The notes beneath the pieces are model-generated. The model did not search any database. It was not told the DNA's origin and saw nothing but the letters and a program-made list of their open reading frames with translations. The position numbers were made by a program, and so were the translations under genes. Of a stretch of DNA of 21,037 bases, positions 1,263-21,037 are shown piece after piece. Origin of the DNA: a virus; IMG/VR virus record IMGVR_UViG_3300008050_000403, positions 1 through 21,037 of that record. One strand, 5' to 3'. Positions within the stretch are counted from its first letter, which is position 1. Each line of letters opens with the position of its first letter.

Positions 1263-1264
1263 AT

Positions 1265-2101
1265 TTATTCTCCTACAATCAAATTAGGGTCTAATGTTTC
1301 CATTAAAACCCTTTCCGTTTCTAATAATAAAGTTGTATCATCGATTTCTTCTTCTTTAAGTTTTTCTGGAGTTGCAACACTCAATAGAGTGTCCAAATCT
1401 TGGAATGCTTCTTGCAAAGCATCTTGCACTTCCATAACTAGAGAAGCTGACTTCTCTGATAAAACCTTCTCTTTTCCAAGTCTCAAGGCAGTAAGCTCCT
1501 TGAATCTTGATAACAATTCAGATAACTTAATAAGTAAATCATCTGATTGCTCATCTAAAGTTAAACCAGAGAGCTCCTTCTCAGTTGCTTCTGATTTTTC
1601 TTCGACATCTTCATCATTATTTTCTTTAACACCAACAGTGAAGGTGTTTTGATTTGCTCCGACAAGGACTGGGCTAACTTCCCAAACATTAAGTTCCTTT
1701 AAGTATCGAGCATCAACTGGTGTTTCACTATCTTTCTGATATGTACCATTTTCATAATCCAATACTTCATATCCGAAAGACCATTGTTGTAAATCTCCCA
1801 TAGCTTTAACAGTGTTGAAGGCATCTTTACCAGCTTGAGTGTCCATAATGAATTGACCTTTAAAGGTAGCTTTGTCTCCATCTTGTTTAATGACTCCACG
1901 ACCAATAGGATTTTTCCAGTCATGAGCCCAGACCATAGCAACTCCACTGTCTCCATAGCCAGACTTAATTGCATTTGGCATTACTACATCTCCATCTGAA
2001 TCCATTTCATTGAATACTGAGAAGACTGCTTCTACTTTGCCTTCTACTTCATTAGTTATTTTTGAGTCGATTACTTTTGACTCGAGCTTATCTCTTTCCA
2101 T
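1265..2101 (-). CDS. Prohead maturation protease, HK97/U35 family
   Basis: Serine protease that cleaves the capsid delta domain after prohead assembly; herpesvirus-assemblin fold. The N-terminal 160 residues carry the family pattern: 'VFNEMDSDGDVVMPNAI', a catalytic His in 'VWAHDWKNPIG' (about residue 60), a catalytic Ser in 'QQWSFGY' (about 108) and an acidic third residue in 'LNVWEVSPVLVGAN' (about 141). The C-terminal third is acidic and helical, as in family members that also act as internal scaffold. I chose the ATG at 2101 because GAAGGA lies 6 nt upstream and the previous stop ends 1 nt before it. An in-frame ATG at 2119 would add six residues but has no ribosome binding site and overlaps the upstream gene. 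Confidence 0.92.
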   Translation of the reverse strand: MERDKLESKVIDSKITNEVEGKVEAVFSVFNEMDSDGDVVMPNAIKSGYGDSGVAMVWAHDWKNPIGRGVIKQDGDKATFKGQFIMDTQAGKDAFNTVKAMGDLQQWSFGYEVLDYENGTYQKDSETPVDARYLKELNVWEVSPVLVGANQNTFTVGVKENNDEDVEEKSEATEKELSGLTLDEQSDDLLIKLSELLSRFKELTALRLGKEKVLSEKSASLVMEVQDALQEAFQDLDTLLSVATPEKLKEEEIDDTTLLLETERVLMETLDPNLIVGE

Positions 2102-2102
2102 T

Positions 2103-3455
2103 TTAAATCCTTCTTTCATGATAAATAACTGTACATCTACAATTACATACTAATCTAGGTGGAGCTCCAAAGCTACTATCTGCTGGATAATTCATCTTAA
2201 ATCCCTGCACATTGAAAGTAGCATTCTTGTCCACTTCAATCCTGTCCATATAAATATGTGCATCTCTTACTTTACCATCTCTTCTTGTTGTCCACTCCTT
2301 AGTTAACATTAATCCTGTTTGACCTGCTGACTGAGCCATTCCATAGTTAGATATAGCAGTTCCTTCTGTTCTTGCAATGTTCATTGCTCTTCCAAGATTC
2401 TTCTTTCCTAATACTTTGCTTATTCGTTTTTGAATATGTCTTTCAGCTCTAGCACCAGTTAAACCAAGTTCAGCTACTTCATCAGTTGCTTTCCTTAATG
2501 CAGTATTTAAGTTTCCTTTCATTGTCTTTGACATATCTGGAATTAAAGTATCTAATCTCTTTTGAACAAAAGCTTTTGAAGCCCTGTTAAATGATTGTCT
2601 TTCTATTGGTAATCTAACTCCAGCTCTTCTTCTAGGGTAGAATCCATCTTCAATAATTTCTTTTCTAGGTTTTAACCTTCTGTTCCTAGTAATGACTTCC
2701 TGCTGAGATGGTGTATAAACAAAGTTATCATCTGTTGTCTTCTCTTCTGGTAACAAGAATGCTGTTTGTAAGTAAGCAAAGTCAACTGCCATGCTTTCGT
2801 AAATATCAGCTACATCATCAATCCATTTGTTAGCTTCATTATCTATTGCAATGTTTGCTATGTTGATTGTTCCAGAAGCAGTTGCTGATTGTTCTGCAAA
2901 TACTTTATTGATTGCATTAACTTGATTTCTTAAAAGTACATAATAGGTTTTAGCTAAAACGAAATCCCAATTACCTAATAGTTTATCAAACTCTTCATAA
3001 TGAATATCTCTTGATTGTTTAGTTCTGAATCTTTCAGTCCTTACCTTCCAATTAGTATCTCTTAATATATTTCTTCTTCTTATAAGCTCTTGAGCAGATG
3101 CAAAGTTCTTTTGTTTCTCTAATGTATCAACATTCTCTCTTGCCCAGTGATAAGCTTTCATTCTATCTTCCTTCTCAATGCTTCCACCTAGTAGCAACCA
3201 GACAACTTGTTCAGCAGACATTAGTGATGTCTCTCCACGATTGTATGCTAAGGACTTCTTAGAATCTAACTCAGACTCATGTCTTAAGAAATAAGATTCC
3301 ATTTGTACTAGGAGCTCTTCAGTAACTATTCCTTTTGAAAGATTCTTTGCGTTTGTTGATAAGTCGGTAGGTATATGAGTTTCAGTAATATGAATAAAGT
3401 CCAGACCTTTAATTGCATTCTGTCTTATATGATTTGGAACTAGGAATCTAGTCAT
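2103..3455 (-). CDS. MuF/SPP1 gp7-like head morphogenesis protein
   Basis: Minor head protein, 450 aa. The last 110 residues show the Phage_Mu_F pattern: 'ARTEGTAISNYG', then 'EWTTRRDGKVRDAHIYMD', a hydrophobic strand 'FNVQGFKMNYPAD' and the closing 'VCNCRCTV' (Cys437, Cys439, Cys441). In SPP1 and Mu such proteins enter the prohead with the portal and affect DNA ejection. Residues 1 to about 115 look like a separate helical module that I have seen on phage head proteins ('VPNHIRQNAIKGL', then 'MESYFLRHESELDSK' and 'VVWLLLGGS'); its function is unknown to me. It overlaps the portal end by 8 nt, so translation is probably coupled, and the ribosome binding site is weak. No toxin-like domain is visible after the MuF block. 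Confidence 0.88.
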   Translation of the reverse strand: MTRFLVPNHIRQNAIKGLDFIHITETHIPTDLSTNAKNLSKGIVTEELLVQMESYFLRHESELDSKKSLAYNRGETSLMSAEQVVWLLLGGSIEKEDRMKAYHWARENVDTLEKQKNFASAQELIRRRNILRDTNWKVRTERFRTKQSRDIHYEEFDKLLGNWDFVLAKTYYVLLRNQVNAINKVFAEQSATASGTINIANIAIDNEANKWIDDVADIYESMAVDFAYLQTAFLLPEEKTTDDNFVYTPSQQEVITRNRRLKPRKEIIEDGFYPRRRAGVRLPIERQSFNRASKAFVQKRLDTLIPDMSKTMKGNLNTALRKATDEVAELGLTGARAERHIQKRISKVLGKKNLGRAMNIARTEGTAISNYGMAQSAGQTGLMLTKEWTTRRDGKVRDAHIYMDRIEVDKNATFNVQGFKMNYPADSSFGAPPRLVCNCRCTVIYHERRI

Positions 3456-5004
3456 CTTGCTTTTTAGGGCTAGTGCTATAACTTTCTATCTGTCTTAATC
3501 TTCTCTCTGCAAGTTTCCTTGTAGCATAGCAACCCATATTCTTTCCAGACCCTTCTGCAATTACACAATACTGGTCTTCAATCTTCTTAATAACTTTATC
3601 TTCAAATCTTTCAATGGTTGCTTTATCATCATTGTTCTCTTCATCATCTTCTGTAACTATTTCTGGAGTGTATTCAACTTCTGGCATATCTACTTGAGCT
3701 TCATGTGTGTATTCATCTTGATAATCTCTTTCAGTACCCATTGGCTTTAAGTAATAGTTTTGTGATTCATCAGTAGGTAGTCCAACTGCTTGTCTTGCTT
3801 CTCCGACTGTTACCCAACCACCTTCAACACCAACATTCATTCTCTCAAACAATTCGTTATGGTCTGTTTGCAAAGCTCTTACTTGACTGAAGTCATATTC
3901 TGCATAAGCCACTTCACTTGATTCATAATCTGGTAATAATATTTGTTGAGTTATTTCTTCAGCGACCATCTTCCATAAAGGAATCAGTTTGGATTCAGTA
4001 AAGAACTCTCTTAGTTCTCTAGCATTAGAATAAGTTGCGTGTTTCAATCCAGCTCCAAGACCAGCAAGGATAGCTGGAACACCAAGAACAGCAGACACTC
4101 TCTCTTCTGGAACTTGTCTGAGAGCTCCTATGTCTAAATCTTTAGGAGAGAACGATAGCTTCTCTATGTTCATTGAGCCAGATAGAATTAGTGGCTTACC
4201 TTTATTCTTTCCACCAACCTTCTGTTGATATGTCTTAGATATTTGGTCGGCTTCATCTTTAGTTAATCCATATTCATCTTTTGGACTAATCAAGATTGAA
4301 GGAACACCCATGTTAGATAATAAAGCTGTTGCCATTTGTCCTGCTGATTCATCTCCATAGATTTCTCTTAATACTGTTTTAAGTGGAGAGAATCCAGTCT
4401 TATGGTTATCTGGGTCAAGACCCAACTTGAAGTGAACGATGTCTGTCTTATCAATCTTTGCTTTGCCATCTTCCATTTCATAAACATAATGAGTTATCAG
4501 TTCTTCTTTAGTTCCTTTAGGAATTACATTGCTTGGCATCAAAGGATAGAGAGCTACCAGTTGCCCAACATTATTATATTGCTTAAGCAAGTAAGCATCT
4601 CCAGATACATGAATGGCATTTATAATATATTGTTGAACTACATCTCCAGACATATAAGGATTAGGTCTTCTCAATAATAAACTTAAAGGGTGGTTAGGTA
4701 TTGTTAGTTTTTCTCCATGCTCATCAACAGTACAAACTCCTATTGTTGCTTCTGAGAATGCAACACCAAGAACTTGAAGACAAGCTGTAACTGCTGAGTT
4801 CGATTGTCCATTGCCCAGACCTTCTATATCCCAGTTACCAGCAGAAGTGTGGTATCCCTCAATAAATGATGTGGACATTCCATAAGTTGATTCATTAGGG
4901 TCATCTCTATAGAAGTCATAGCCAGTTGTTCTCTTGTAACCAGTTCTATTATCTCTATATCTAATATTATTAACTATGTCTCTAAAGCTTCTTCGTTCTG
5001 CCAT
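3448..5004 (-). CDS. Portal protein, HK97 family
   Basis: Dodecameric DNA channel at the head vertex and docking site for terminase, 518 aa. Family landmarks are 'NSAVTACLQVLGVAFSEA', 'HPLSLLLRRPNPYMSG', 'INAIHVSGDAYLLKQYNNVG', 'TDIVHFKLG' and 'VPEERVSAVLGVPAIL'. Residues 1 to about 430 make a complete portal. An acidic linker follows, and then a small terminal module at about 479-507 with the pattern YCV-x6-GK-x-MGCY-ATRKLAERRLRQIE, an unusual tail for a portal. GAGGAGA lies directly before the ATG and overlaps the terminase TGA stop, so the two are probably coupled. The assignment rests on sequence landmarks and on the place next to the large terminase. Confidence 0.94.
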   Translation of the reverse strand: MAERRSFRDIVNNIRYRDNRTGYKRTTGYDFYRDDPNESTYGMSTSFIEGYHTSAGNWDIEGLGNGQSNSAVTACLQVLGVAFSEATIGVCTVDEHGEKLTIPNHPLSLLLRRPNPYMSGDVVQQYIINAIHVSGDAYLLKQYNNVGQLVALYPLMPSNVIPKGTKEELITHYVYEMEDGKAKIDKTDIVHFKLGLDPDNHKTGFSPLKTVLREIYGDESAGQMATALLSNMGVPSILISPKDEYGLTKDEADQISKTYQQKVGGKNKGKPLILSGSMNIEKLSFSPKDLDIGALRQVPEERVSAVLGVPAILAGLGAGLKHATYSNARELREFFTESKLIPLWKMVAEEITQQILLPDYESSEVAYAEYDFSQVRALQTDHNELFERMNVGVEGGWVTVGEARQAVGLPTDESQNYYLKPMGTERDYQDEYTHEAQVDMPEVEYTPEIVTEDDEENNDDKATIERFEDKVIKKIEDQYCVIAEGSGKNMGCYATRKLAERRLRQIESYSTSPKKQDD

Positions 5005-5011
5005 CTTCTCC

Positions 5012-6292
5012 TCAGTATGCTCTTATTGTGTTCTTCTTTGCACTTTGCAATACAGCATAAGCCAAGCTATCCACTTGGTCATCGTGTTCTCCATTAGGAA
5101 ACTGTAACAATTCCTTCTCCATATCAGAAAACCAAACTGCATCTCTAGGAAAGAATACCATACCAGCTTCCATTTTCGCAGACAATGGCAAAGCCCTAGA
5201 GAGCTTGTCTCTGTCTGCCTTCAATTCTACAATCGGAAGTGTTGTTTGTCTTCTTACGATTTGAATTAATGCTAATTGGTATCCTGCTCTTTCAATCCCA
5301 ATCATGTCTGGATTCCACTTATCATAAACTGTTTGAAGGAGCTTTAATACTTCTGGAGCTTCTAATCTCTCTCTAATGACATCGAGCACGAAGATATTGT
5401 TCTTCTTATCAAGACCAACAGTTGTTACGACTGTATAGTCTGCTGATTCCTTAGTTGATGTTGCCAAGTCAACAGTTGTAATCCTTCTTAGTTCTTTTGA
5501 ATTTCTTTTAATCTTTCCAGATATAAGATAAGTATTTGTTTCGTAGTTGCCCTCATCATTAAACTCTTCAACTGATTCTTCATTATAGAATTGAAACCAT
5601 TCTCTCTTAAGCAATCCACCAGTAAGCTCAACGAATTGAGCATCATACTCTTGTGAGAACAGATAAGACCCAATCTCTTGCTTGGCTATCTCTAATTCTT
5701 TAATATCAATAATTGGATTGGCTTGACTAGGATAGACCCATCGTTCCCATTCATCTTTGCCTTCAGCTTCATCGTATATTTTATAAAACCAGTTGTTCAT
5801 TCCTGCTGGAGTTGATATAAACAAAGCTCCACCTTTCCTATCAGTAAGGGTTGGTCTTAATACTTCTTTCCAAGTCTGTTCTTTGATGTAAGCACACTCA
5901 TCAAGAACTATGTAATCTAATCCTGCACCACGAAGTCTATCTGGGTTATCAGCAGTCCTTACAGTAACGAATCCATTAGTCTTTGTATAGATTGTCTTCT
6001 CAGATTCCTTAACTTCCATTCCATATTCACTAGCTAACTGTCTGATTGTCTTCCAACCTTCAAGAGCCATTGCATAAGTGGGAGCTACCCACCAAGTGTT
6101 CTTACCTTGCATTGCTTTTGCTAAACAGATTAAAGTTCCAAGTCTTGTCTTTCCAAATCTTCTTCCAGCAACTAAAACTTTGAATCTTGCTTGAGACTTG
6201 GCTACTTCTTGTTGAGCTTCATGTAGTTTCGGAAGTGTTACTTTATATCTAGTGGTAGTAACGAAACCTTTTGGGTCAAGACTGGTTTCCAT
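5012..6292 (-). CDS. Terminase large subunit (ATPase-nuclease)
   Basis: Packaging motor that cuts concatemeric DNA and pumps it through the portal, 426 aa. The ATPase half has Walker A 'VAGRRFGKT' (41-49), Walker B 'YIVLDE' with Asp131 and Glu132, and the coupling motif 'ISTPAG' (159-164). The RNase H-like nuclease half has candidate metal ligands Asp275 in 'TTVDLATS', Glu334 in 'IGIERAG' and Asp404, Asp405 and Asp408 in 'HDDQVDSLAYA'. All expected active-site residues are present and the length is normal. It overlaps the preceding 80-aa ORF by 17 nt. Packaging type (cos or headful) cannot be judged from this window. Confidence 0.95.
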   Translation of the reverse strand: METSLDPKGFVTTTRYKVTLPKLHEAQQEVAKSQARFKVLVAGRRFGKTRLGTLICLAKAMQGKNTWWVAPTYAMALEGWKTIRQLASEYGMEVKESEKTIYTKTNGFVTVRTADNPDRLRGAGLDYIVLDECAYIKEQTWKEVLRPTLTDRKGGALFISTPAGMNNWFYKIYDEAEGKDEWERWVYPSQANPIIDIKELEIAKQEIGSYLFSQEYDAQFVELTGGLLKREWFQFYNEESVEEFNDEGNYETNTYLISGKIKRNSKELRRITTVDLATSTKESADYTVVTTVGLDKKNNIFVLDVIRERLEAPEVLKLLQTVYDKWNPDMIGIERAGYQLALIQIVRRQTTLPIVELKADRDKLSRALPLSAKMEAGMVFFPRDAVWFSDMEKELLQFPNGEHDDQVDSLAYAVLQSAKKNTIRAY

Positions 6293-6518
6293 GCCTTAAC
6301 CAATTTAGAAAATCTCCAAACAAATCTTCGACTAACTCTGGTGGCATAGGACTTACCAAATATATTTGTGGAGATGGCATTGGTATTACATATTCATTAA
6401 TTATGTATGATGTATCTACATCAGAGAAATTCATATCCCAATCTTCAGCCATTATCATATCAACAAACTTACTGTTCGTTTCATCTTCATTCATATTATG
6501 TTCTGGAGTATCACTCAT
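6276..6518 (-). CDS. Small acidic protein between the terminase genes
   Basis: 80-aa ORF of unknown function. It is acidic in its first half and has a Pro-rich patch ('IPMPSPQIYLVSPMPP') followed by the amphipathic 'LVEDLFGDFLNWLRHG'. It is locked into the operon by a 4-nt ATGA overlap with the small terminase upstream and a 17-nt overlap with the large terminase downstream, so it is very likely translated. I do not recognise a family. The position suggests a packaging accessory role, but that is only inference. Confidence 0.7.
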   Translation of the reverse strand: MSDTPEHNMNEDETNSKFVDMIMAEDWDMNFSDVDTSYIINEYVIPMPSPQIYLVSPMPPELVEDLFGDFLNWLRHGNQS

Positions 6519-7084
6519 GACTGTTCTATTGTATCAGATGAAACTTGTTCTGGGTTGTTCTCACTAGGATTAGATACATCTTCATCGTGCATATCGTGCA
6601 TAACTGAATCACTAGGAAGTTCTTCTATGACCTTATCATCTTGAAAGTCTGAATAAGGCTCTCCATCTGCCCAGCTCATATCAACAACTACTTCTTCAAC
6701 ATTAGTAACTTGTAGGGAGCTCTTCTCTCCAAACTGCATAGGATACTTAACCGATAAGAGTTTCAGTAATAGGTTTCCATTGGTTTGCCCTAGTTCATTA
6801 ATGCGAATCAAAGTATTAACTTTAAACCGAGCTTCAGCATCTATGATTCTCTGCCATTGTTCAATAAAGTATTCATCTTTCTCTTCGAGGGCTCTCTGTC
6901 TCCATCTTCTAAAGGTTGATGAGTTAATTCCTGCGAAGGCACAAGCATCTTCAATGTATGCTCCATTCTCTAAAGCCCTAATAAGTTTTATCCATGTCTC
7001 TTCATCAAGGAACTTGTTCTTCTTTTTGGATTTCGTTAATCCGAAGTTCCTAGCGAGAAAGCCTTCATTATCTTGTTCTGTCAT
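6515..7084 (-). CDS. Probable terminase small subunit
   Basis: DNA-recognition subunit of the packaging terminase, 189 aa. Residues about 31-63 form a helix-turn-helix of the small-terminase kind ('EDACAFAGINSSTFRRWRQR'), followed by a long helical segment ('IDAEARFKVNTLIRINELG') and 'LLLKLLSVKYPMQFGEKSSL', a pattern common after the HTH in this family and expected to mediate oligomerisation. The last 60 residues are acidic and low in complexity. It is the first gene of the leftward operon, just after the divergent promoter region. The ribosome binding site is weak (TAGGT). Order and pattern make the call fairly safe, although small terminases diverge fast. Confidence 0.8.
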   Translation of the reverse strand: MTEQDNEGFLARNFGLTKSKKKNKFLDEETWIKLIRALENGAYIEDACAFAGINSSTFRRWRQRALEEKDEYFIEQWQRIIDAEARFKVNTLIRINELGQTNGNLLLKLLSVKYPMQFGEKSSLQVTNVEEVVVDMSWADGEPYSDFQDDKVIEELPSDSVMHDMHDEDVSNPSENNPEQVSSDTIEQS

Positions 7085-13750: not shown

Positions 13751-13915
13751 TAGCTTGAGTAGCTCAACTGAAGCAAAAGGTAAAATACTAAAAAACCCTT
13801 GTGAGACTCTTCATTCTCTAACCAAGCCACTCAAGCTACTGACATATAAGAGTGTGGTTGTGAGCTGTTGCCAGTCCACATCATCTCCTAATAGATGAAC
13901 TCTTTTGTCAGTAGC
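13751..13915 (-). promoter_or_regulatory. Chained alternative hairpins with possible attenuator
   Basis: Two 10-bp perfect helices share one strand: TGTCAGTAGC (13906-13915) pairs with GCTACTGACA (13835-13844), while ACTCAAGCTA (13829-13838) pairs with TAGCTTGAGT (13751-13760). GCTA (13835-13838) belongs to both. A third option is the local hairpin TTGAG-TAG-CTCAA (13755-13767). On the transcribed minus strand a weak stem at 13798-13826 is followed by GGG and six T (13795-13790), like an intrinsic terminator. A 17-codon frame (13884 to 13831, 'MMWTGNSSQP') ends inside the shared strand and could be a leader peptide, but its AGGAG is too close to the ATG to be convincing. Confidence 0.5.
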
Positions 13916-13921
13916 TAAAGA

Positions 13922-14539
13922 TTAGTCTTCTTTTATTTTAGCTTGAAGCTTATCAATCCTTTTGACAATCGGCTTTTGCTTCTTGTCAAATTCGGCTTCA
14001 GTCTCTTTGAACTTATCCATGTATTCATCAGATAGTTCTTTAAGAGCTTCTTCCTTTTGGGATTCAATCTTTTCCACTACTCGTTGTTGCTTACGAATTT
14101 TATATTCGTGAACTTCGTTCAAAGATTTCTGAGAGACAAGCCCTTCAGCTACATTCTCTTCAGTAACTTGAACAGTTTCAGTTGAAGACAATTCTCCTCT
14201 TCTGGATTTATGTCTCTTCCACTCTTCAGCCATCTTTGATATTTGAGATACTGTATAATCTATACCTAACTCTACTGATTGTATTTCTACTAAGTATTTC
14301 TGGTAGTCATCAGTGGTCTCAATATGTTTCGTGCCTTTAGGACAATACAAGCTCCACTTAAGAGCGTGTCCATCTTTCCTTCTTTGGAGAACTAAGGCTC
14401 CACTAAAGAAAAGTCTCCAGCATTTAACACAACGAACAAACCGATTAGATTCAAGATTCAGAGTGATATGTCCTATTGAACTATCATCATCTGACATTCC
14501 TAAATTGTTATCGGTATAAAAATTTGTAATTTCTCTCAA
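13922..14539 (-). CDS. Cys-containing coiled-coil protein, TTG start
   Basis: About 205 aa, unknown function. The N-terminal half has a possible zinc site, 'FVRCVKCWRLFF' (Cys37, Cys40) and 'LYCPKGTKH' (Cys66, His72). The C-terminal 65 residues are a long charged helix ('QQRVVEKIESQKEEALKELS' onward), almost certainly a coiled coil. I place the start at TTG 14539 because AAGGAG sits 5 nt before it; the in-frame ATG at 14554 is itself part of that AAGGAG region and has no upstream site. A zinc head on a coiled coil suggests an adaptor or nucleic-acid binder, but nothing more can be said. Confidence 0.7.
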   Translation of the reverse strand: MREITNFYTDNNLGMSDDDSSIGHITLNLESNRFVRCVKCWRLFFSGALVLQRRKDGHALKWSLYCPKGTKHIETTDDYQKYLVEIQSVELGIDYTVSQISKMAEEWKRHKSRRGELSSTETVQVTEENVAEGLVSQKSLNEVHEYKIRKQQRVVEKIESQKEEALKELSDEYMDKFKETEAEFDKKQKPIVKRIDKLQAKIKED

Positions 14540-14563
14540 AACTACTCCTTCCATTGTTTAGTT

Positions 14564-14635
14564 GACAATTATTATACTCTTTGAGTATTACAAATAATTA
14601 TCGTTGAGCTCTGAGTTATTCAGAGCTCTGCGATA
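14564..14635 (-). repeat. Two-hairpin element, diverged copy 0
   Basis: Same architecture as copies 1-6 with largely different sequence. H1 pairs TATCGCAGAGCTCTGA with TCAGAGCTCAACGATA (14620-14635 and 14599-14614, read on the minus strand), interrupted by a 2x2 mismatch that includes the A-A position kept in the other copies. H2 pairs GATAATTATT with AATAATTGTC (one G-U), with inner ATACTC/GAGTAT (14574-14588). GATA is shared by both hairpins. H1 begins 1 nt after the TAG of the 85-aa gene. Confidence 0.65.
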
Positions 14636-14636
14636 A

Positions 14637-14894
14637 CTACTCTTCTTCTTCGTTTCCAAAGAACTGAGCCCTAATCAACTTTGGTGTTTCAGTATCTTCA
14701 CGAGACCAAACATAGTACTTTGATTTAGGTTGGTTTTCTGGGTCAAACTCAATATGTTCAACTCCCTTCCAATCTGAATAACCAAGTTTGATATTCTTAT
14801 CACCCAATTTCATATACAATGCGTAAGCTTTCTGATAAGAGTCAGCTTCGATTGTAAAGTCAATCGTAAAAGTTTCATGAAATAAGTATTTCAT
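14637..14894 (-). CDS. 85-aa hypothetical protein
   Basis: Unknown function. It starts 'MKYLFHETFTIDFTIEADSY' (two beta strands), then a helix 'YQKAYALYMKLGDKNI', and 'KYYVWSRED' with an acidic 'EEEE' end. A small alpha/beta fold is likely. AAGGAG lies 6 nt before the ATG. It lies between two-hairpin copies 1 (upstream) and 0 (downstream), so it is a single-gene cassette. Confidence 0.72.
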   Translation of the reverse strand: MKYLFHETFTIDFTIEADSYQKAYALYMKLGDKNIKLGYSDWKGVEHIEFDPENQPKSKYYVWSREDTETPKLIRAQFFGNEEEE

Positions 14895-14919
14895 AAATCT
14901 CCTTTCTGTTATTTAGTTT

Positions 14920-15045
14920 GATACTCCTTATAAGTATCTATCTGCTCTCGTGTTTCACTGAACTTCTCAACCCTACTGTTTCGATTTCGTTTCGATTTAA
15001 GGATTAGTTGGATAGTATTGCTAATTGCACAAGAGCAGTTAGATA
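14920..15045 (-). repeat. Two-hairpin element, copy 1 with expanded loop
   Basis: H1 arms TATCTAACTGCTCT and AGAGCAGATAGATA (15045-15032 and 14948-14935 on the minus strand) enclose an 83-nt loop instead of the 4-10 nt of the other copies. The loop contains a TTTCGATT direct repeat (from about 14980) and a weak ATTAG/CTAAT stem. H2 is GATACT-TATAAGG-AGTATC (14938-14920). The upstream TAA stop (15049-15047) is 1 nt from H1. Confidence 0.75.
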
Positions 15046-15046
15046 G

Positions 15047-15463
15047 TTACTCGTATAGAGTTAAATCAGATTTAAGTCCTTCAAGGACATCATCTAAATC
15101 CATTGTTGTATCAGTAGCGAATCTGATTTCATAATCAGTCAACCAACTGTCAACGACTTTTGGATTAGCTCCATCTGTATCTCCATTTTCAAGAAGGTCT
15201 TTCACATAATCAATGAATGAAGCAATAGTAACTTCATCAGAGTAATGTCTAGCCTTTTCGAAATAACGAATGACTTCATCTGGATTGTTGAAGTAGTTTG
15301 CATCATTTAACACACTAGCTCCAGTCAATATAGAATCATCATTAAGCAAATCAGTTCTTGAATATCTTACATAGCTGTAACCACCAAGCTGATTCTTTAA
15401 GAAGCTAACAGCTTGAATATCTTCTTCAAGTCTTAGCTTCGTTTCGTTGTCTTTGTTTTCCAT
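15047..15463 (-). CDS. 138-aa acidic hypothetical protein
   Basis: Unknown function, strongly acidic. Helical stretches include 'LRLEEDIQAVSFLKNQLGGY', 'NNPDEVIRYFEKARHYSDEV' and 'TIASFIDYVKDLLENGD'; the end 'MDLDDVLEGLKSDLTLYE' is also helical. It lies 2 nt after the stop of the 154-aa gene, and its AGAGGAG site lies inside the last codons of that gene, so this is a coupled pair with no hairpin element between. Its high net negative charge is reminiscent of phage DNA-mimic or inhibitor proteins, which is speculation. Confidence 0.7.
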   Translation of the reverse strand: MENKDNETKLRLEEDIQAVSFLKNQLGGYSYVRYSRTDLLNDDSILTGASVLNDANYFNNPDEVIRYFEKARHYSDEVTIASFIDYVKDLLENGDTDGANPKVVDSWLTDYEIRFATDTTMDLDDVLEGLKSDLTLYE

Positions 15464-15465
15464 TG

Positions 15466-15930
15466 TTAAACTCCTCTTGTTATTGCATTAACAAATAGAG
15501 TGTACCAATCTGTCTTTGACCAAATTTCAGTCATTTCAACTTGGTGCATATACATTCCAACACTATTACTATATGTGCCATTATCAACTGTTACAGTAGT
15601 TGTGATATTGATAACTTTATCTTTTATAGTTACAGTGCTAGTCTTTGTAACTTCTCCAACACCCATCTCATGGGTAACTTGAAAAGTAGCCCATCTATCT
15701 TTAGATGGCATGGAAACTCTATCAGAGCCATGATTCGCATAAGAATCTCGGCTTGTCCAATACACAATGTGGAAATTGTAATAACCTTTTCCTTTTGTGT
15801 TCCATGTTGGGCATTCTGGAAATCTTAGTTCATCTTGATTAGGAGCTGGAACAAGTTCCTGTCCATCAGCAAAATCGCTAAGTCCTTCCTTTACTGCTTC
15901 TATTAGTTTATTCATTTGTGTTTTGTTCAT
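15466..15930 (-). CDS. 154-aa hypothetical protein, beta-rich
   Basis: Unknown function. A helical start 'MNKTQMNKLIEAVKEGLSDF' is followed by a Trp/Tyr-rich region ('YYNFHIVYWTSRDSYANHG') and a run of alternating beta strands ('TSTVTIKDKVINITTTVTVD'). AAAGGAG lies upstream of the ATG within the 59-bp leader that is repeated exactly in front of the 173-aa gene. The first 16 residues weakly resemble the start of the 173-aa protein; the rest shows no convincing similarity by eye. Confidence 0.7.
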   Translation of the reverse strand: MNKTQMNKLIEAVKEGLSDFADGQELVPAPNQDELRFPECPTWNTKGKGYYNFHIVYWTSRDSYANHGSDRVSMPSKDRWATFQVTHEMGVGEVTKTSTVTIKDKVINITTTVTVDNGTYSNSVGMYMHQVEMTEIWSKTDWYTLFVNAITRGV

Positions 15931-15984
15931 AATAAAACTCCTTTCTTTTTTTTGTTTAATTAGTTTTTTTATGATTGATACTTT
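15926..15984 (-). repeat. 59-bp exact leader repeat, copy A
   Basis: Identical over 59 bp to 16573-16631. It spans the last bases of the ATG region, the AAAGGAG site, a T-rich spacer (A-rich in the transcript) and the 3' arm of H2. The two copies are 647 bp apart in the same orientation. Identity including homopolymer lengths (8 T and 7 T) implies a recent duplication or gene conversion. Confidence 0.9.
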
Positions 15985-16027
15985 ATAAGTATCTATCTGC
16001 TCTCCGATTAAGAAGAGCAGTTAGATA
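15977..16027 (-). repeat. Two-hairpin element, copy 2
   Basis: H1 arms TATCTAACTGCTCT and AGAGCAGATAGATA (16027-16014 and 16003-15990) with a 10-nt loop; H2 GATACTT-ATA-AAGTATC (15993-15977), the tightest H2 of the set. The conserved TAA-T preceding H1 (16031-16029) is not the stop of the upstream gene, which ends 27 nt earlier at a TAG in the same frame. Confidence 0.8.
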
Positions 16028-16055
16028 ATTACCTAATTTGCTTCAAGGTCATTAA

Positions 16056-16577
16056 CTATTCTATACCATCAGAAATTTCGACAATCTGACTTCCTATTAC
16101 TTGAGGCCTATCAATCAGCGTATCCATATTGATAGTATCTTTGGTTGACATAAGTTTTTTGTAATTCACATACAAATCTATGTGAACATTCTTTAGGTTT
16201 CCATCATAAGCATCAGAAATAGATATTCTATATTCTGTTCTAAATGGAACTCTCTCTCTGTTATGTCCTTTGGTATCGTTCCTGCCAACTGAGATATGAA
16301 GAAATCTTTCTTCATTTCTCATTAACTTGTTAGCTTCGTTTTCAACCACATACTCCATTGTCCACCAACCCTCTCCAGTGTTAAATGGATTCTCTGTATC
16401 TTTATGTCGGTCAACTCCAGTAGTGTAAATAGAATCTTCGGTATAAACTTCGGCATAGTCTTTATTTCTATTGTCCTTATTTATTCCTTTGACTTCCTCT
16501 ACTCTAAAGTCTCCACCATTCCACGCATGGTATGTGTTCATAGCTTTCACTATTTTTTTTACTTCACTTAAATTCAT
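16056..16577 (-). CDS. 173-aa hypothetical protein
   Basis: Unknown function. It starts 'MNLSEVKKIVKAMNTYHAW', with beta-rich segments later ('GEGWWTMEYVVENEANK', 'YRISISDAYDGNLKNVHIDL'). AAAGGAG lies in the repeated 59-bp leader. The TAG stop is followed in the same frame by eight sense codons ('LMTLKQIR') and a TAA that has the usual position 1 nt before the hairpin element, so the gene may have been shortened by a recent nonsense mutation, or the TAG may be read through at some rate. Confidence 0.7.
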   Translation of the reverse strand: MNLSEVKKIVKAMNTYHAWNGGDFRVEEVKGINKDNRNKDYAEVYTEDSIYTTGVDRHKDTENPFNTGEGWWTMEYVVENEANKLMRNEERFLHISVGRNDTKGHNRERVPFRTEYRISISDAYDGNLKNVHIDLYVNYKKLMSTKDTINMDTLIDRPQVIGSQIVEISDGIE

Positions 16578-16631
16578 AATAAAACTCCTTTCTTTTTTTT
16601 GTTTAATTAGTTTTTTTATGATTGATACTTT
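16573..16631 (-). repeat. 59-bp exact leader repeat, copy B
   Basis: Second copy of the leader at 15926-15984, here in front of the 173-aa gene. Identity ends inside the H2 loop, where copy 3 has three extra bases. Recombination between the two would remove one hairpin element and the 173-aa gene as a unit. Confidence 0.9.
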
Positions 16632-16676
16632 GTTATAAGTATCTATCTACCCACCAAGCTGATGGGTAGTTAGATA
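16624..16676 (-). repeat. Two-hairpin element, copy 3 (covariant stem)
   Basis: H1 arms TATCTAACTACCCA and TGGGTAGATAGATA (16676-16663 and 16653-16640), 9-nt loop; H2 GATACTT-ATAACA-AAGTATC (16643-16624). The apical stem TACCCA/TGGGTA replaces the TGCTCT/AGAGCA and AGCTCTC/GAGAGCT of the other copies with full complementarity. The upstream TAA stop (16680-16678) is 1 nt from H1. Confidence 0.85.
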
Positions 16677-16677
16677 G

Positions 16678-16812
16678 TTACTTGTAGTAACCATATTCGC
16701 AACTGTTGCACCAGAAGAAATATGTATTCTGAACTTTGTATTGTTCATCTACAAATCCTTCCATTGCAATTCTGATTTTTAATTCAGTGTTGCAAGTTTT
16801 GCAAAAAGTCAT
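16678..16812 (-). CDS. 44-aa zinc-ribbon microprotein
   Basis: Starts 'MTFCKTCNTELKIRIA' (Cys4, Cys7) and ends 'YFFWCNSCEYGYYK' (Cys35, Cys38): two CxxC knuckles 28 residues apart, a textbook minimal zinc ribbon. AAGGAG lies 7 nt before the ATG. It is bounded by two-hairpin copies 4 and 3, so it is a complete single-gene cassette. Function unknown; candidates are transcription or translation modifiers. Confidence 0.75.
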   Translation of the reverse strand: MTFCKTCNTELKIRIAMEGFVDEQYKVQNTYFFWCNSCEYGYYK

Positions 16813-16859
16813 TGCTGACTCCTTCCGATTTTTTGTTTGTGTGGTATTGATTTGTCATT

Positions 16860-16909
16860 GATACTTTTATAAGTATCTATCAGCTCTCGATTAGGAGAGC
16901 TGTTAGATA
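16860..16909 (-). repeat. Two-hairpin element, copy 4
   Basis: H1 arms TATCTAACAGCTCTC and GAGAGCTGATAGATA (16909-16895 and 16888-16874), 6-nt loop; H2 GATACTT-ATAA-AAGTATC (16877-16860). The TAA stop of the 150-aa gene (16913-16911) is 1 nt from H1. Confidence 0.85.
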
Positions 16910-16910
16910 G

Positions 16911-17363
16911 TTACTTCTTAGCTTCGTGTCTTGCTTTCATCATCAAGCGACCACGATACTCTCTCTTAGCACAACCTTCACTACAGTACAAAGTATGTTG
17001 TGTACTGAATGTTCCGAGCTTAGTGATTTCTCTAGTCTCAGAGTTATAGTCGATGTCTTCAACCTCGTTTGTGTAAAGAACAACATCTGAGAATTTGATT
17101 CCAGTTATTTCAACTGATACATCATCTTCATCGTAATCATCTTCATCATCAATGATTGACTCATCAACCATAAATGATTTTAATGATTCCTCGTAGTAAC
17201 TGCCAGACTCAGTGATAATTGTTTCACAAGTCATATTGTCGCACATAACCATTTCGCCATTATCTGATTCTGTAAGAACTTTGAGCATAGCATCTTGAGT
17301 TGCTTCATCTGCATCTTTCCAAGTTGTTATGTTCATATTTTCTACTTCGTTATTTATATCCAT
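16911..17363 (-). CDS. 150-aa acidic protein with possible zinc site
   Basis: Unknown function. Possible metal ligands are Cys41 and Cys46 ('MCDNMTCETI') and Cys127 and Cys131 ('LYCSEGCAKREY'). Between them lies an acidic run ('DDEDDYDEDD') and beta-like text ('VSVEITGIKFSDVVLYT'). The C-terminus is basic ('RGRLMMKARHEAKK'). AAAGGAG lies upstream of the ATG. Two half-sites brought together by folding would make one zinc centre. It is a single-gene cassette between copies 5 and 4. Confidence 0.7.
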   Translation of the reverse strand: MDINNEVENMNITTWKDADEATQDAMLKVLTESDNGEMVMCDNMTCETIITESGSYYEESLKSFMVDESIIDDEDDYDEDDVSVEITGIKFSDVVLYTNEVEDIDYNSETREITKLGTFSTQHTLYCSEGCAKREYRGRLMMKARHEAKK

Positions 17364-17402
17364 TTTTTGTTTTCTCCTTTCAAGAGAATAGTTTTTTACT
17401 TT

Positions 17403-17450
17403 GATACTTGTATAAGTATCTATCAGCTCTCCTTAGAGAGCTGTTAGATA
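17403..17450 (-). repeat. Two-hairpin element, copy 5
   Basis: H1 arms TATCTAACAGCTCTC and GAGAGCTGATAGATA (17450-17436 and 17431-17417) with the shortest loop, 4 nt; H2 GATACTT-ATAC-AAGTATC (17420-17403). A TAA-T precedes H1 as usual, but it is out of frame with the upstream gene, whose stop is about 20 nt earlier. Confidence 0.85.
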
Positions 17451-17473
17451 ATTACTTAGATATATTTTTATCT

Positions 17474-17764
17474 TTATTCATTTAGTTCCTCAATCTCAGA
17501 TTTTTTCTCTATGTACATCTCGTTGTCTTTCCAACAACCCTTGCAAAAACTATCAAGTGAATTTTTCTCTAAATCATTTCGGTAAGCCCTCTCGTATGGC
17601 TCAACTAATTCTTTTCCACAAGCAGTTTCCATAACAAATCCTTTTTCACTTATTTTCATATCACTAGCTTTGATATGTGTTAAAGCTGTTGGTGGATAGG
17701 TGTCCCCTCTTTTTGCTATGTTGTACACTCTGGCTTGAAGTATCCAAAGTTCTTTGTTATTCAT
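17474..17764 (-). CDS. 96-aa CG/CxxC zinc-type protein
   Basis: Unknown function. Likely zinc ligands are His30 ('ALTHIKAS'), Cys49 ('ETACGKELV') and Cys74 and Cys77 ('SFCKGCWKDN'). The spaced H...CG...CxxC pattern is one I associate with small actinophage proteins; this is memory, not a search. The rest is helical and polar. AAGGA lies about 10 nt before the ATG. Single-gene cassette between copies 6 and 5. Confidence 0.7.
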   Translation of the reverse strand: MNNKELWILQARVYNIAKRGDTYPPTALTHIKASDMKISEKGFVMETACGKELVEPYERAYRNDLEKNSLDSFCKGCWKDNEMYIEKKSEIEELNE

Positions 17765-17793
17765 TTTTTGTTTTCCTTTTTGTTTTTTAGTTT

Positions 17794-17843
17794 GATACTC
17801 GTATAAGTATCTATCAGCTCTCGGTTAAGAGAGCTGTTAGATA
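17794..17843 (-). repeat. Two-hairpin element, copy 6
   Basis: H1 arms TATCTAACAGCTCTC and GAGAGCTGATAGATA (17843-17829 and 17822-17808), 6-nt loop; H2 GATACT-TATACG-AGTATC (17811-17794). The TAA stop of the 28-aa ORF (17847-17845) is 1 nt from H1. Confidence 0.85.
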
Positions 17844-17844
17844 A

Positions 17845-17931
17845 TTACTTTGTAAGAAAGTTAAGTGCTACGACTAAAGTCGGAACAGTTACAATCCTTA
17901 TCAAGTTAAATGTCATTATTAGTATTTCCAT
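17845..17931 (-). CDS. 28-aa hydrophobic peptide
   Basis: Tiny ORF starting 'MEILIMTFNLIRIVT' and ending 'VALNFLTK', hydrophobic enough for one short membrane span. Support comes from its setting: AAGGA is placed as in the neighbours and the TAA lies exactly 1 nt before two-hairpin copy 6, as in the other cassettes. It may be a membrane micropeptide or an eroded cassette gene. Confidence 0.5.
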   Translation of the reverse strand: MEILIMTFNLIRIVTVPTLVVALNFLTK

Positions 17932-17956: not shown

Positions 17957-18007
17957 GTTGGAAGAGATTCTTCCATAGAGCCCACTCAATGAATGAGCTC
18001 TAGCAAC
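17957..18007 (-). repeat. Tandem hairpins, possible copy 7 with empty slot
   Basis: Hairpins TAGAGC/GCTCTA (18002-17997 with 17981-17976, inner CTCA/TGAG) and TGGAAGA-ATC-TCTTCCA (17975-17959), flanked by GTTG/CAAC, just ahead of the 28-aa ORF. The order stem, tight hairpin, ribosome binding site is that of copies 0-6, but the sequence is unrelated. Upstream (18008-18060) there are two AAAGGAA sites but no ATG-initiated ORF, as if a cassette had lost its gene. Confidence 0.45.
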
Positions 18008-18437
18008 AATCTTCTATCCTATATTTTTGTTTAATTTCCTTTTAATTTTTTTTCCTTTATAGGTTTGGAAGTTTCAGACTTCCGACTGTCCACTCAGCAT
18101 CTCCTTAACAACAGACTCAGAATCAAACATAGAGGATTCTTTCCGATGAAATCTTTGTGTCTAAACTACGAACTCCTTTGAATCTTGGAATCAAGTATTT
18201 TTGAGATTAGGAAATCTCGATGGCTACGATTGGCTCGACACGACTTTGGTACTGTATCAGAACGAGAGTGGATTTTTTGAGCTTTTGACTTTCAGCTTTT
18301 AAGACTCTTGGGGATTTACCAGAGGTAGTTCTGGGAGTTCAATCCGTTTTGTTTATTTCATAAGATAATATTACCTACTTAATCAGAGATTGCAAATTTA
18401 TAATTAGGAATATAGAAGAAAATAGGATAAATAGATA
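18008..18437. other. Gene-free hairpin-rich stretch
   Basis: No credible ORF on either strand. Visible hairpins are GGAAGT/ACTTCC (18067-18083), AGAATC/GATTCT (18119-18140), GAGATT/AATCTC (18203-18218) and a two-part stem GGATT..CCAGA / TCTGG..AATCC (18312-18345). On the minus strand TTGCAA (18395-18390) and TAATAT (18373-18368) with a 16-nt spacer are a weak promoter candidate for the leftward array. The length and density of stems allow a structured RNA or a control region between late and early operons; I cannot assign a family. Confidence 0.4.
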
Positions 18438-18495
18438 TATTAGAGCCAATAGACATAGGGTCTAATAGTACGAAAAAAAAAATTTATTTTTTTTT
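18438..18495 (-). terminator. Possible terminator of the right-hand operon
   Basis: Read leftward after the 74-aa gene stop come an A9-TAAA-T10 tract (18495-18473) and a hairpin TATTAGA/TCTAATA (18467-18461 with 18444-18438) extended by CC/GG across one mismatch. The following sequence is T-rich but interrupted. This would separate the holin-like genes from the cassette array. The stem is moderate and the layout is not a textbook stem plus U tract. Confidence 0.3.
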
Positions 18496-18530
18496 AGAAA
18501 TTTAGAGAAATATCACTCAAATTATGACTA

Positions 18531-18755
18531 TCAAGTTATATTTTTCAAAACTTGGAAGAGTCCAGTTAGGAGAAGAGTTACAATCGTTGCCCAAGCAAAG
18601 AGCTCTTGCCTATCAACTTTTGAATTTGTTTTTTCATGGAGCTCATCGATTCGCATATTAGTCTGTTCAAGTTTTGCAAGAATCAATCCGAGCATCTCCT
18701 TGTTGGTGTACCCTTGATGATATTCTTGTAAGTGATTTTTATCTTTGTGAGTCAT
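18531..18755 (-). CDS. XhlA-like small membrane protein, candidate holin
   Basis: 74 aa. A charged N-terminal half with heptad character ('NKEMLGLILAKLEQTNMRID', 'LHEKTNSKVDRQ') is followed by one C-terminal membrane span ('AWATIVTLLLTGLFQVL', about 54-70). This topology matches the XhlA/haemolysin family that accompanies phage holins. The ATG at 18755 has GGAG 7 nt upstream; an in-frame extension to 18776 lacks support. It overlaps the 49-aa gene by 17 nt. The lysozyme-like gene lies 10 kb away, so a lysis role is inferred from topology only. Confidence 0.6.
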   Translation of the reverse strand: MTHKDKNHLQEYHQGYTNKEMLGLILAKLEQTNMRIDELHEKTNSKVDRQELFAWATIVTLLLTGLFQVLKNIT

Positions 18756-19335: not shown

Positions 19336-19737
19336 TCAGTTTTTTCTTAATCCCATTGTTAGCAACCAAAGTGAAATAGATATTAGAATTGCAATCCCTA
19401 CTATGTCCTTAGAGCTCGAAGTTAAAGTCAACCATGCGATGAAAAATCCAAGAATTGTGAAAATCTGAGCAATAGTCTCCTTCACTGCTTCTACAAACCA
19501 CTTGCCAATATATTTTAGAACTTTCCAAAACCATCTAGCGACAAACAATACAGACAACTTAATAGAAGTAATTGTTTTCAAAATCATATTCCACAAACCT
19601 AGACATAAAGATTTTAAGTTAGACCATGTTGCACTAACAGCTTTAACAATTAAATCTTTTAATTTTATAACTGCATAATAAGGCAAACCCAATATCTTAA
19701 AAAGTAAATCCAATATTCGTATTATTAATTTCATCAT
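19336..19737 (-). CDS. Multi-pass membrane protein
   Basis: 133 aa, hydrophobic and basic. Likely spans include 'LIIRILDLLFKILGLPYYAV', 'LSVLFVARWFWKVLKYIG', 'IFTILGFFIAWLTLT' and 'IVGIAILISISLWLLTMGL'. Between the first two, 'KLKDLIVKAVSATWSNLKSL' looks amphipathic. No family recognised. It overlaps the repetitive protein upstream by 4 nt (ATGA) with AGGA 8 nt ahead, so the two are made together and may act together at the membrane. Confidence 0.7.
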   Translation of the reverse strand: MMKLIIRILDLLFKILGLPYYAVIKLKDLIVKAVSATWSNLKSLCLGLWNMILKTITSIKLSVLFVARWFWKVLKYIGKWFVEAVKETIAQIFTILGFFIAWLTLTSSSKDIVGIAILISISLWLLTMGLRKN

Positions 19738-21037
19738 TTTATTTTCCTAATAGGGATTATACTTCCTGCCGAAATGATTTGCGAGACTATGATAACTGGA
19801 ACTACAACTTCTTTGGCTTTATCTTTTTGGTCTTGAGTTAGGTCATTACCAATTTCTGAAACATTACCTACATCTGAAAAATCAATATCAGTAAGTTCTG
19901 CTATTGGATTCTCCAAGAAGGATTCTAAATTTATTTCTGTTACTGCATCAGCAAATGTATATTCTTGAGAAGAATCATCTGCATTCGCTACTGCTCTCTC
20001 TACGAACTCATCAACAGCTTGTGCAACTGCTTCATCTTCTTGTACTAATTCAGCTACTATCTCTACATCTTCCTTCTCTACTCCCAACACTTCAGCTACA
20101 ACTTCTACTTGTGCTTCAGTAAGTTCCTCAACATTCTCAACAGCTTCCTCAACTATCTGTGATACAACCTCAATTACTTCTTCAGATACTTCAGAAAGAT
20201 TCTCAACACCTATGTCATTAACTTCTTCAATGACTTCTACTAATTCCTCATTCTCTAATTCCTCAACCTCAATCTCTATCACTTCCTCAATAACTTCTTC
20301 CAGTTCCTCTACCTCTACTGCTAATTCTTCTTCAGTAAGCTCTGGCTCTTCCTCATTTGTAAAGATTTCTATAATGCCTGTAACAATTTCCTCTGCTGTA
20401 ACTTCTATCTCTATTACTTCGGCAACAGTTTCTGGAATAGTCGTAGTAGTTGTAGTTGTCGTTGTAGTGGTACTTGTGGTTGTGGTAGTAGGAGTTAGAG
20501 CAACTATTATATCTTCAACATCTACCTCTTTTATTTCTATAACTTCTTCCTCAACTTGTTCTGCTAACTCTTCTAGTTCCTCAATATTTTCTTCAATCTG
20601 TTGGATAACCTCAACAAATTCTTCTAGTTCTTCTTCTGTGTATTCAACATCAACCTGCATTGATTCTTCTAAAGATTGTTTTACTTCAGCTTTAATCCTA
20701 GCTTCCTCTTCAGCATCTTCTCTAACTAATCTCTCATCATCAGTTTCATAGTATCCAGTCTCAGCAAAGTTCCTATCTAGCATCTCTTGATATTCTCTAG
20801 CTTCTCTGTCAGCTCTCTCTGCATTGGTTTCGTAATATCCTGTTTCAGCTTGGTTAGCTTCTGATTCTTCAGCTATGCGTTTTTCTTCAGCAATCCTTTC
20901 AGCTTCAATTCGTTCAGCTTCTATTCGTTCAGCTTCCAATCTTTCTTGTTCTTCCTTATATTCTCTATCTCTGCGTTCAGAATCTAACTCCCAGTATCCA
21001 GTCTCAGCTTGGTTATTATCTCTCTCCCAATTAAGAG
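19734..21037 (-). CDS. Repetitive Glu/Thr-rich protein with C-terminal anchor, 5' end missing
   Basis: The reading frame is open to the right edge, so the N-terminus is outside; about 433 residues are visible. In order: three copies of an AETGY(Y/W)E-x3-ER-x2-RE motif, the first starting near the edge, with 'EAERI' repeats after the first; a helical acidic stretch; a Thr-rich linker (11 Thr, Ser, 5 Thr); about 200 residues rich in Glu and Val ('VEELEEVIEEVIEIEVEELE'); and a hydrophobic end ('EVVVPVIIVSQIISAGSIIP') with a basic tip. It looks like a long, partly disordered protein with a C-terminal membrane segment. A tail-fibre or virion role would fit the end of a late operon, but no fibre domain is visible. 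Poly-Thr linkers are frequent in Acidimicrobiia proteins, a weak host hint. Confidence 0.7.
   Translation of the reverse strand, partial: LNWERDNNQAETGYWELDSERRDREYKEEQERLEAERIEAERIEAERIAEEKRIAEESEANQAETGYYETNAERADREAREYQEMLDRNFAETGYYETDDERLVREDAEEEARIKAEVKQSLEESMQVDVEYTEEELEEFVEVIQQIEENIEELEELAEQVEEEVIEIKEVDVEDIIVALTPTTTTTSTTTTTTTTTTTIPETVAEVIEIEVTAEEIVTGIIEIFTNEEEPELTEEELAVEVEELEEVIEEVIEIEVEELENEELVEVIEEVNDIGVENLSEVSEEVIEVVSQIVEEAVENVEELTEAQVEVVAEVLGVEKEDVEIVAELVQEDEAVAQAVDEFVERAVANADDSSQEYTFADAVTEINLESFLENPIAELTDIDFSDVGNVSEIGNDLTQDQKDKAKEVVVPVIIVSQIISAGSIIPIRKIK
20439..20495 (-). repeat. Thr-codon microsatellite
   Basis: Nineteen codons encoding Thr-Pro-Thr5-Ser-Thr11, written almost entirely as ACN triplets with mixed third bases. 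The synonymous variation suggests selection for the threonine run rather than a fresh slippage product, although the length may still vary among relatives. Confidence 0.8.

Follow-up and report, generated by a model that had tools for sequence, protein, structure and literature searches.

A repeated element in the small-gene array of a viral fragment

The stretch of DNA analysed here (the window), positions 1-21,037 of IMG/VR record IMGVR_UViG_3300008050_000403, is of viral origin and carries terminase, portal, head morphogenesis, protease and capsid genes at 6-7084 and an array of small genes at ~13,900-17,931, both on the minus strand. The array is punctuated by a repeated element whose motif, GATAGATACTTATA, was found by pattern search in six copies, all within the array and on the minus (coding) strand, at 14929, 15984, 16634, 16868, 17411 and 17802; allowing one mismatch brought up no further copy anywhere in the window, and a control with the pattern reversed gave zero. 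An earlier reading, made from the letters of the window (the sequence-only reading), had placed six two-hairpin elements on the transcribed strand of the small-gene array and none in the head-gene operon; the search bears out both statements, as well as the sequences given for hairpin 1 (H1) and hairpin 2 (H2).

The arrangement of these hairpins is another matter. In its class I form, the element reads 5' to 3' on the mRNA strand as GTAAy-TATCTA-A-inner arm-loop-inner arm-A-TAGATA-C-TTATA-n-AGTATC, with a leader rich in A downstream, then a Shine-Dalgarno site and start codon. H1, in which arm A pairs with arm B around an inner stem, joins GTAA to TTAT, TATCTA to TAGATA and the two inner arms, leaving a y.C and an A.A mismatch; the stem noticed earlier is thus present but longer than described, with ~20 paired positions. 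H2, in which arm B pairs with arm C, joins GATAC(T) to (A)GTATC. The two hairpins had been taken to stand in series, which is wrong: the 3' arm of H1 (TAGATA) and the 5' arm of H2 (GATAC) use the same GATA, so the folds are mutually exclusive, and the second fold retains the inner stem and swaps A:B for B:C. The inner stem measures 8-10 base pairs (bp) in 84 of 95 copies, which keeps the length of H1 roughly constant, and the apical loops vary greatly in length between copies. In the classes listed in our structural comparison, H2 begins 2 nucleotides (nt) 3' of the A.A mismatch, and it leaves the Shine-Dalgarno site uncovered. The AAGGAG reported after the A-rich leader is there in most copies, but copy 6 has AAGGAA. 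Judging from these sequences, we have very little doubt that the element is a three-arm RNA with two mutually exclusive folds on the mRNA strand.

Table 1. Positions of the element and associated features in the window
Feature	Position	Strand	Basis or remark
E0, diverged leader-class element (GATTGTTGCTA...GGAAGAATCTCTTCC)	17960..18011	minus	fold; alignment with conserved leader-class elements of 10 other contigs
Copy 6 H1 (A:B state)	17803..17848	minus	stop TAA of gene 17845-17931 at H1 base
Copy 6 H2 (B:C state), overlapping H1	17794..17811	minus	fold
Copy 5 H1	17412..17455	minus	pattern, covariance model, fold
Copy 5 H2, overlapping H1	17403..17420	minus	fold
Copy 4 H1	16869..16914	minus	stop TAA of gene 16911-17363 at H1 base
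Copy 4 H2, overlapping H1	16860..16877	minus	fold
Copy 3 H1, inner stem CTACCCATC/GGTGGGTAG	16635..16681	minus	stop TAA of gene 16678-16812 at H1 base
Copy 3 H2, overlapping H1	16624..16643	minus	fold
Copy 2 H1	15985..16032	minus	pattern, covariance model, fold
Copy 2 H2, overlapping H1	15977..15993	minus	fold
Copy 1 H1, long apical insertion	14930..15050	minus	stop TAA of gene 15047-15463 at H1 base
Copy 1 H2, overlapping H1	14920..14938	minus	fold
Diverged last element	14564..14642	minus	long hairpin 14592-14642, hairpin 14574-14588 (fold); not detected by covariance model R1
Promoter-like site TTGAAA-16-CATAAT at leader head, candidate only	18521..18548	minus	such sites not above shuffle expectation

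Two further elements lie at the ends of the array (Table 1). The first, E0, had been overlooked; it stands ahead of the first small gene (17845-17931), which encodes 28 amino acids (aa), has its H2 at 17960-17974, and aligns with elements of a leader class (arm A TTGCAA) in other contigs, but its H1 has diverged. The second had been counted as a seventh copy with the same plan, at 14564-14635: it does have one long hairpin with another downstream of it, and its B and C arms could pair (GATAATTATT/AATAATTGTC, with the C arm at 14564-14573), but its sequence is different and covariance model R1 misses it. The long apical insertion of copy 1 recurs in one other contig, L026. Upstream of the array, 17960-18550 (minus strand) is a stretch of ~500 nt without a clear gene that holds the promoter-like site at 18548-18521 and a GGAAG..CTTCC hairpin, and is probably the leader of the array transcript.

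Arms A, B and C change together

Pairing holds in 99.1% of the H1 cells of 38 distinct class I copies, and 7 pairs have changed on both sides, ten invariant pairs being uninformative as these are mostly outer arms fixed by the search pattern. None of 500 shuffles reached the observed covariation score, and partners slid out of register were paired in 25-42% of cells. Wobbles occur as G-U on the coding strand only, with no A-C cell except at the loop-closing pair. This agrees with the sequence-only reading, which had proposed a family of structured elements specific to the small-gene array, as does its absence from Rfam 15, where searches at gathering and relaxed thresholds returned only chance-level matches, all far below gathering scores. 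Of the two outcomes that would have counted against that reading, a lack of covariation and a match to a known Rfam or terminator family, neither was seen.

As H2 is near-invariant in class I, the test of its pairing rests on the other classes, of which the A/B/C arm sets include TTGCAA/TTGGAA/GTTCC, TTGCAA/TTGGAAG/CTTCC, TAGCTA/TAGCTA/GTAGC, TAGCAT/ATGCTA/GTAGC, TAGCTA/TAGGTA/TTACT, TAGCAA/TTGGTA/GTACC and AAGCTA/TAGGTT/CAACC, among others. The three arms change together across about a dozen such classes. When non-class-I matches were chosen by H1 alone, 16 of 38 kept a matching C arm, and hence H2, versus 1.3 expected from shuffled tails, and several of the 22 without H2 look like chance matches inside genes; for class I matches chosen in the same way, H2 is present in 65 of 68. 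The A.A mismatch is kept while all of its flanking pairs change (103 AA versus a few others). In the TTGCAA class, TAA/TTA at the base is replaced by GATT/AATC, which preserves the pairing without a stop codon. Comparative evidence that a repeated phage RNA has two competing folds is seldom as clear as this covariation of three arms.

The two folds are also predicted to be close in energy. In the six copies of the window, H1 is favoured over the inner stem plus H2 by only 1.0-2.2 kcal/mol, and the fold obtained in silico becomes H2 when A is masked or when the RNA begins after the A.A mismatch. Over 80 distinct elements, 60 of them class I, the difference is 2.0 +/- 1.1 kcal/mol with 87.5% within 0-3, versus 4.6 +/- 2.4 kcal/mol with 27% within 0-3 for random AT-rich three-arm sequences, a control of our own design with perfect pairing. 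The class medians fall at 1.1-2.9 kcal/mol in 12 of 13 classes, with one outlier at -4.1.

Distribution, lineages and probable host

The element is widespread in viromes: the pattern TATCTAACN15-45GATAGATACTTATA has exact matches in 51 IMG/VR contigs. With covariance model R1 and a structural descriptor, many more copies and new sequence classes were recovered from these same contigs, giving about 98 distinct copies in total; all relatives thus derive from exact-pattern scans, and class frequencies are biased towards class I. The exact pattern for the TAGCTA class matched only two contigs, both already known, and several matches of a TTGCAA-class scan were discarded as chance, the structural descriptor finding no element in them. 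Among 84,980 bacterial and archaeal species genomes of GTDB there was no match to the exact class I pattern, and a blastn search with one window copy against 50,697 phage records returned only chance matches of 18-30 nt. We found no published description of the element.

The element is shared by two phage lineages whose large terminases differ (about 426 and about 637 aa). The nearest cultured relatives of the window exonuclease and phrog_1221 proteins are mostly actinophages, the window terminase has more scattered, weak matches, and the second-lineage terminase is matched best, and weakly, by Streptomyces phages. As these relatives are mostly actinophages, the host is probably a low-GC aquatic actinobacterium; a search of the GTDB genomes for the window-lineage terminase gave no confirmed match.

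Gene context and exchange of cassettes

Copies of the element stand at the head of an array and between co-oriented genes, always in the sense orientation, and none of the 33 contigs with two or more copies mixes strands. Amongst 76 copies with a clear upstream open reading frame (ORF), the stop codon of that frame sits at the H1 base in 48, and in none does the frame end inside the A arm; in the window, the stop is a TAA in the H1 base in four of the six copies. Two class I cases without TAA at this position have TGA, a stop that still pairs. Leader-class copies, which are stop-less and mostly without an upstream ORF, come first in the array in 15 of 15 contigs, some of these being near-duplicates, and where the rest of the leader diverges, the element is conserved more than any other part and keeps all three arms. 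Its function should therefore be independent of upstream translation, even though the internal copies are fitted to it.

A T-run, as in a terminator, follows the hairpins in none of 98 copies, and promoter-like sites are no more frequent than in shuffles, with no promoter conserved across classes. We accordingly rule out a sigma-70 promoter or an intrinsic terminator within the element. Considering that the 45 contigs searched for proteins are fragments, and that gene absence is indicative only, no tyrosine integrase was found in them (a control recovered it in 14 of 14 genomes), nor a Y1 transposase, nor a phage-encoded RNase III, such that any RNase III acting here would have to be the host enzyme.

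The genes 3' of the elements fall into at least 64 protein clusters with a median of 76 aa, and few of the proteins match known families. Single weak Pfam matches to an ArdC N-terminal domain (1.2e-4) and the Thoeris inhibitor Tad6 (8.8e-4) suggest that some cassettes may be anti-defence genes; the other matches, also single and weak, are to HTH and, among PHROGs, to one anti-restriction protein and one endonuclease. One cassette protein family with an APNQxELRxP motif recurs in several arrays (window 15466-15930; L009 8705-9148; L035 310-750; L049 11916-12359), and a member searched by tblastn against the 50,697 cultured phage records gave no match.

When flanks were compared, 20 pairs of copies shared only the upstream flank and 24 only the downstream flank, indicating that the boundaries of cassette exchange fall at the element. 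Its H2 loop tends to go with the gene downstream, and turnover is fastest in the inner stem, which nevertheless stays paired; identical class I inner stem-loops occur in 11 of 47 pairs within a contig versus 88 of 2581 between contigs. Exchange of cassettes by homology fits these sequences, and a single-strand annealing protein is among those encoded by the second lineage. In the window itself, two 89-nt stretches, 15896-15984 and 16543-16631, are 85% identical and span the start and leader of the cassette genes 15466-15930 and 16056-16577, apparently through recent duplication or exchange of leaders. Outside the array, an ORF of 401 aa (19734-20939, minus strand) is strongly Glu-rich, repetitive and of low complexity, with a Thr-rich run (TTTTTSTTTTTTTTTTT).

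Discussion

What, then, could a three-arm RNA at the gene boundaries of a small-gene array be doing? Known systems provide some guidance. In the early transcript of T7, the first RNase III site lies in the leader, and the leader-class copy, always first in its array, resembles this arrangement. T7 R1.1, which lies at a junction between small early genes, forms an intergenic hairpin of 60 nt that contains an internal loop (PMC6121014). H1 is comparable in size: a hairpin of ~20 paired positions with a central loop, albeit only 1x1, between co-oriented genes. The T7 signals differ in having other sequences, no known competing H2 arm and no stop codon built into the base, and cleavage is predicted for the element described here. 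The rpsO-pnp hairpin of Streptomyces may be regarded as a functional analogue of H1 (PMC10126417).

By position and host group, the nearest described elements are the ESAS/SAS of Cluster K mycobacteriophages (PMC3203893), with similar repeats in Cluster EF Microbacterium phages (PMC7302621). These too are inverted repeats with a variable spacer upstream of many small non-structural actinophage genes, but they lack an H2, and their deviations were judged by the authors not to support RNA pairing (PMC3203893), whereas pairing in the present element covaries in three arms. The SAS motif at the ribosome binding site, GGGATAGGAGCCC, which matches roughly 100 phage records, is no part of our element, which instead has A-rich leaders with AAGGAG-type sites. 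Several ESAS copies of TM4 and Pixie fold as 6 bp, a 1x1 mismatch and 8 bp or more; for instance, the repeats TGTTGAcACCTCAAC...GTTGAGGTaTCAACA at 20029 and 20619 of TM4 (L110) and at 29353 of Pixie (L111) form a one-mismatch hairpin in the same register as H1. We nonetheless reject these as homologues, as the likeness in hairpin geometry is confined to some copies and H2 is present in none of those.

We favour, tentatively and with somewhat less than even confidence, the view that the element is one of mRNA processing and insulation, in which H1 would be a processing site of the host RNase III type and the freed B arm would go on to form H2. Given its size, central mismatch and intergenic site, H1 could be a substrate of a double-strand RNase, most likely the host RNase III. 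A cut near the A.A mismatch would release the B arm, leaving a new 5' end that reads UA-GAUAC..., and the B arm would then re-pair with C, such that the downstream mRNA would start 2 nt before H2. In this position H2 might shield the 5' end of the mRNA, ahead of the unstructured A-rich leader and the Shine-Dalgarno site. In the internal copies, A would be covered by a ribosome that terminates at the embedded stop, which would keep the element in the H2 state and tie processing to translation of the gene upstream. The repeated element would also, as a side effect, offer homology at which cassettes are exchanged. It is the combination of features that favours processing with a hand-off to H2: a ~20-pair hairpin with a fixed mismatch, a second fold that shares its 3' arm and starts 2 nt past the mismatch, placement both in the leader and between genes, and no promoter, terminator or recombinase.

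Several points weigh against this. Cleavage in H1 is a prediction from sequence and folds, and the enzyme would be the putative RNase III of a presumed host. T7 R1.1 has a 4/5 loop, larger than the 1x1 A.A mismatch of H1, and conservation of the class I arms, although partly imposed by the search pattern, exceeds what a general double-stranded RNA substrate would need and hints at a specific binding protein. Moreover, a hand-off after cleavage needs no balanced energies, and the balance that we predict fits an equilibrium switch better. Indeed, such a balance suggests that the folds also exchange reversibly, with a terminating ribosome as the obvious driver in the internal copies; we infer that both may operate, and rank processing first.

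Could the element do without cleavage altogether? In a translation-gated switch, a ribosome at the H1-base stop would melt A:B and allow B:C to form, thereby controlling re-initiation or stability downstream. The exact placement of the stop, the two TGA cases that remain both stop and paired, the shift of all six window copies to H2 when A is occluded in silico, and the near-isoenergetic states would all be explained by this switch. We consider it unlikely all the same, since the leader class, with no stop and mostly no upstream gene, keeps all three arms in the most conserved part of its leader, and since H2 does not cover the Shine-Dalgarno site.

Less likely still is a binding site for a phage or host RNA-binding factor, perhaps an autoregulator of the array, or an antitermination RNA acting on RNA polymerase in the manner of HK022 putRNA, a cis-acting RNA of two hairpins and about 70 nt in early phage transcripts (PMC9378689). 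The tandem-hairpin form and the conservation of the class I arms and A.A mismatch beyond pairing would suit such a site. Put, however, comprises two independent stem-loops and is present in two copies per genome, each near an early promoter; our hairpins share an arm and are repeated between genes, mutually exclusive arms fall outside the put architecture as far as it is described, and no candidate binding protein was found.

A site of recombination at the DNA level, akin to integron attC or REP/Y1 sites, in which a folded single strand moves cassettes, is largely refuted, and we hold it to be very improbable. The likeness is real enough – attC sites are also folded, highly variable in their loops and set in a single orientation behind every small ORF, cassettes are likewise shuffled here and joined at the element, and ATCTAAC happens to fit RYYYAAC – but neither integrase nor Y1 transposase was found in the 45 contig fragments searched, the 3' arm reads GATAGAT and not GTTRRRY, AAC is lost in other classes, the coding strand folds whereas attC uses the bottom strand, and the C arm would have no role.

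PeSL of T4-like phages are repeated stem-loop cassettes with an early promoter, set between small variable early genes, and the sequence-only reading had seen a likeness in concept, which is weak: it holds for the repeated stem-loops between small genes but not for a conserved promoter or a T-run, and the T7-type RNase III sites and actinophage ESAS are closer to our element. A promoter, operator or terminator cassette of this kind is the least credible explanation of all: the class I TATA motif and a position before each gene speak for it, but TATA is lost in other classes with the pairing kept, the promoter-like sites and T-runs are as reported above, and compensatory changes in H2 are unexpected of a protein-bound DNA palindrome. 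In short, putRNA, PeSL, attC, terminators and all Rfam families each depart from the element in at least one tested feature.

The comparison offers a directly testable account of how phage mRNA may be insulated and processed in arrays of tiny, fast-exchanging genes. We may be looking – a possibility to which we give a little under even weight – at an undescribed class of bistable RNA that serves as a standard gene-boundary part. Each cassette would bring the same switch along, its folds tuned to within about 2 kcal/mol of one another despite change in all three arms, and neighbouring genes would be swappable without disturbing one another's expression. Beyond its mechanism, the element could bookmark accessory, and possibly anti-defence, cassettes in viromes where annotation fails.

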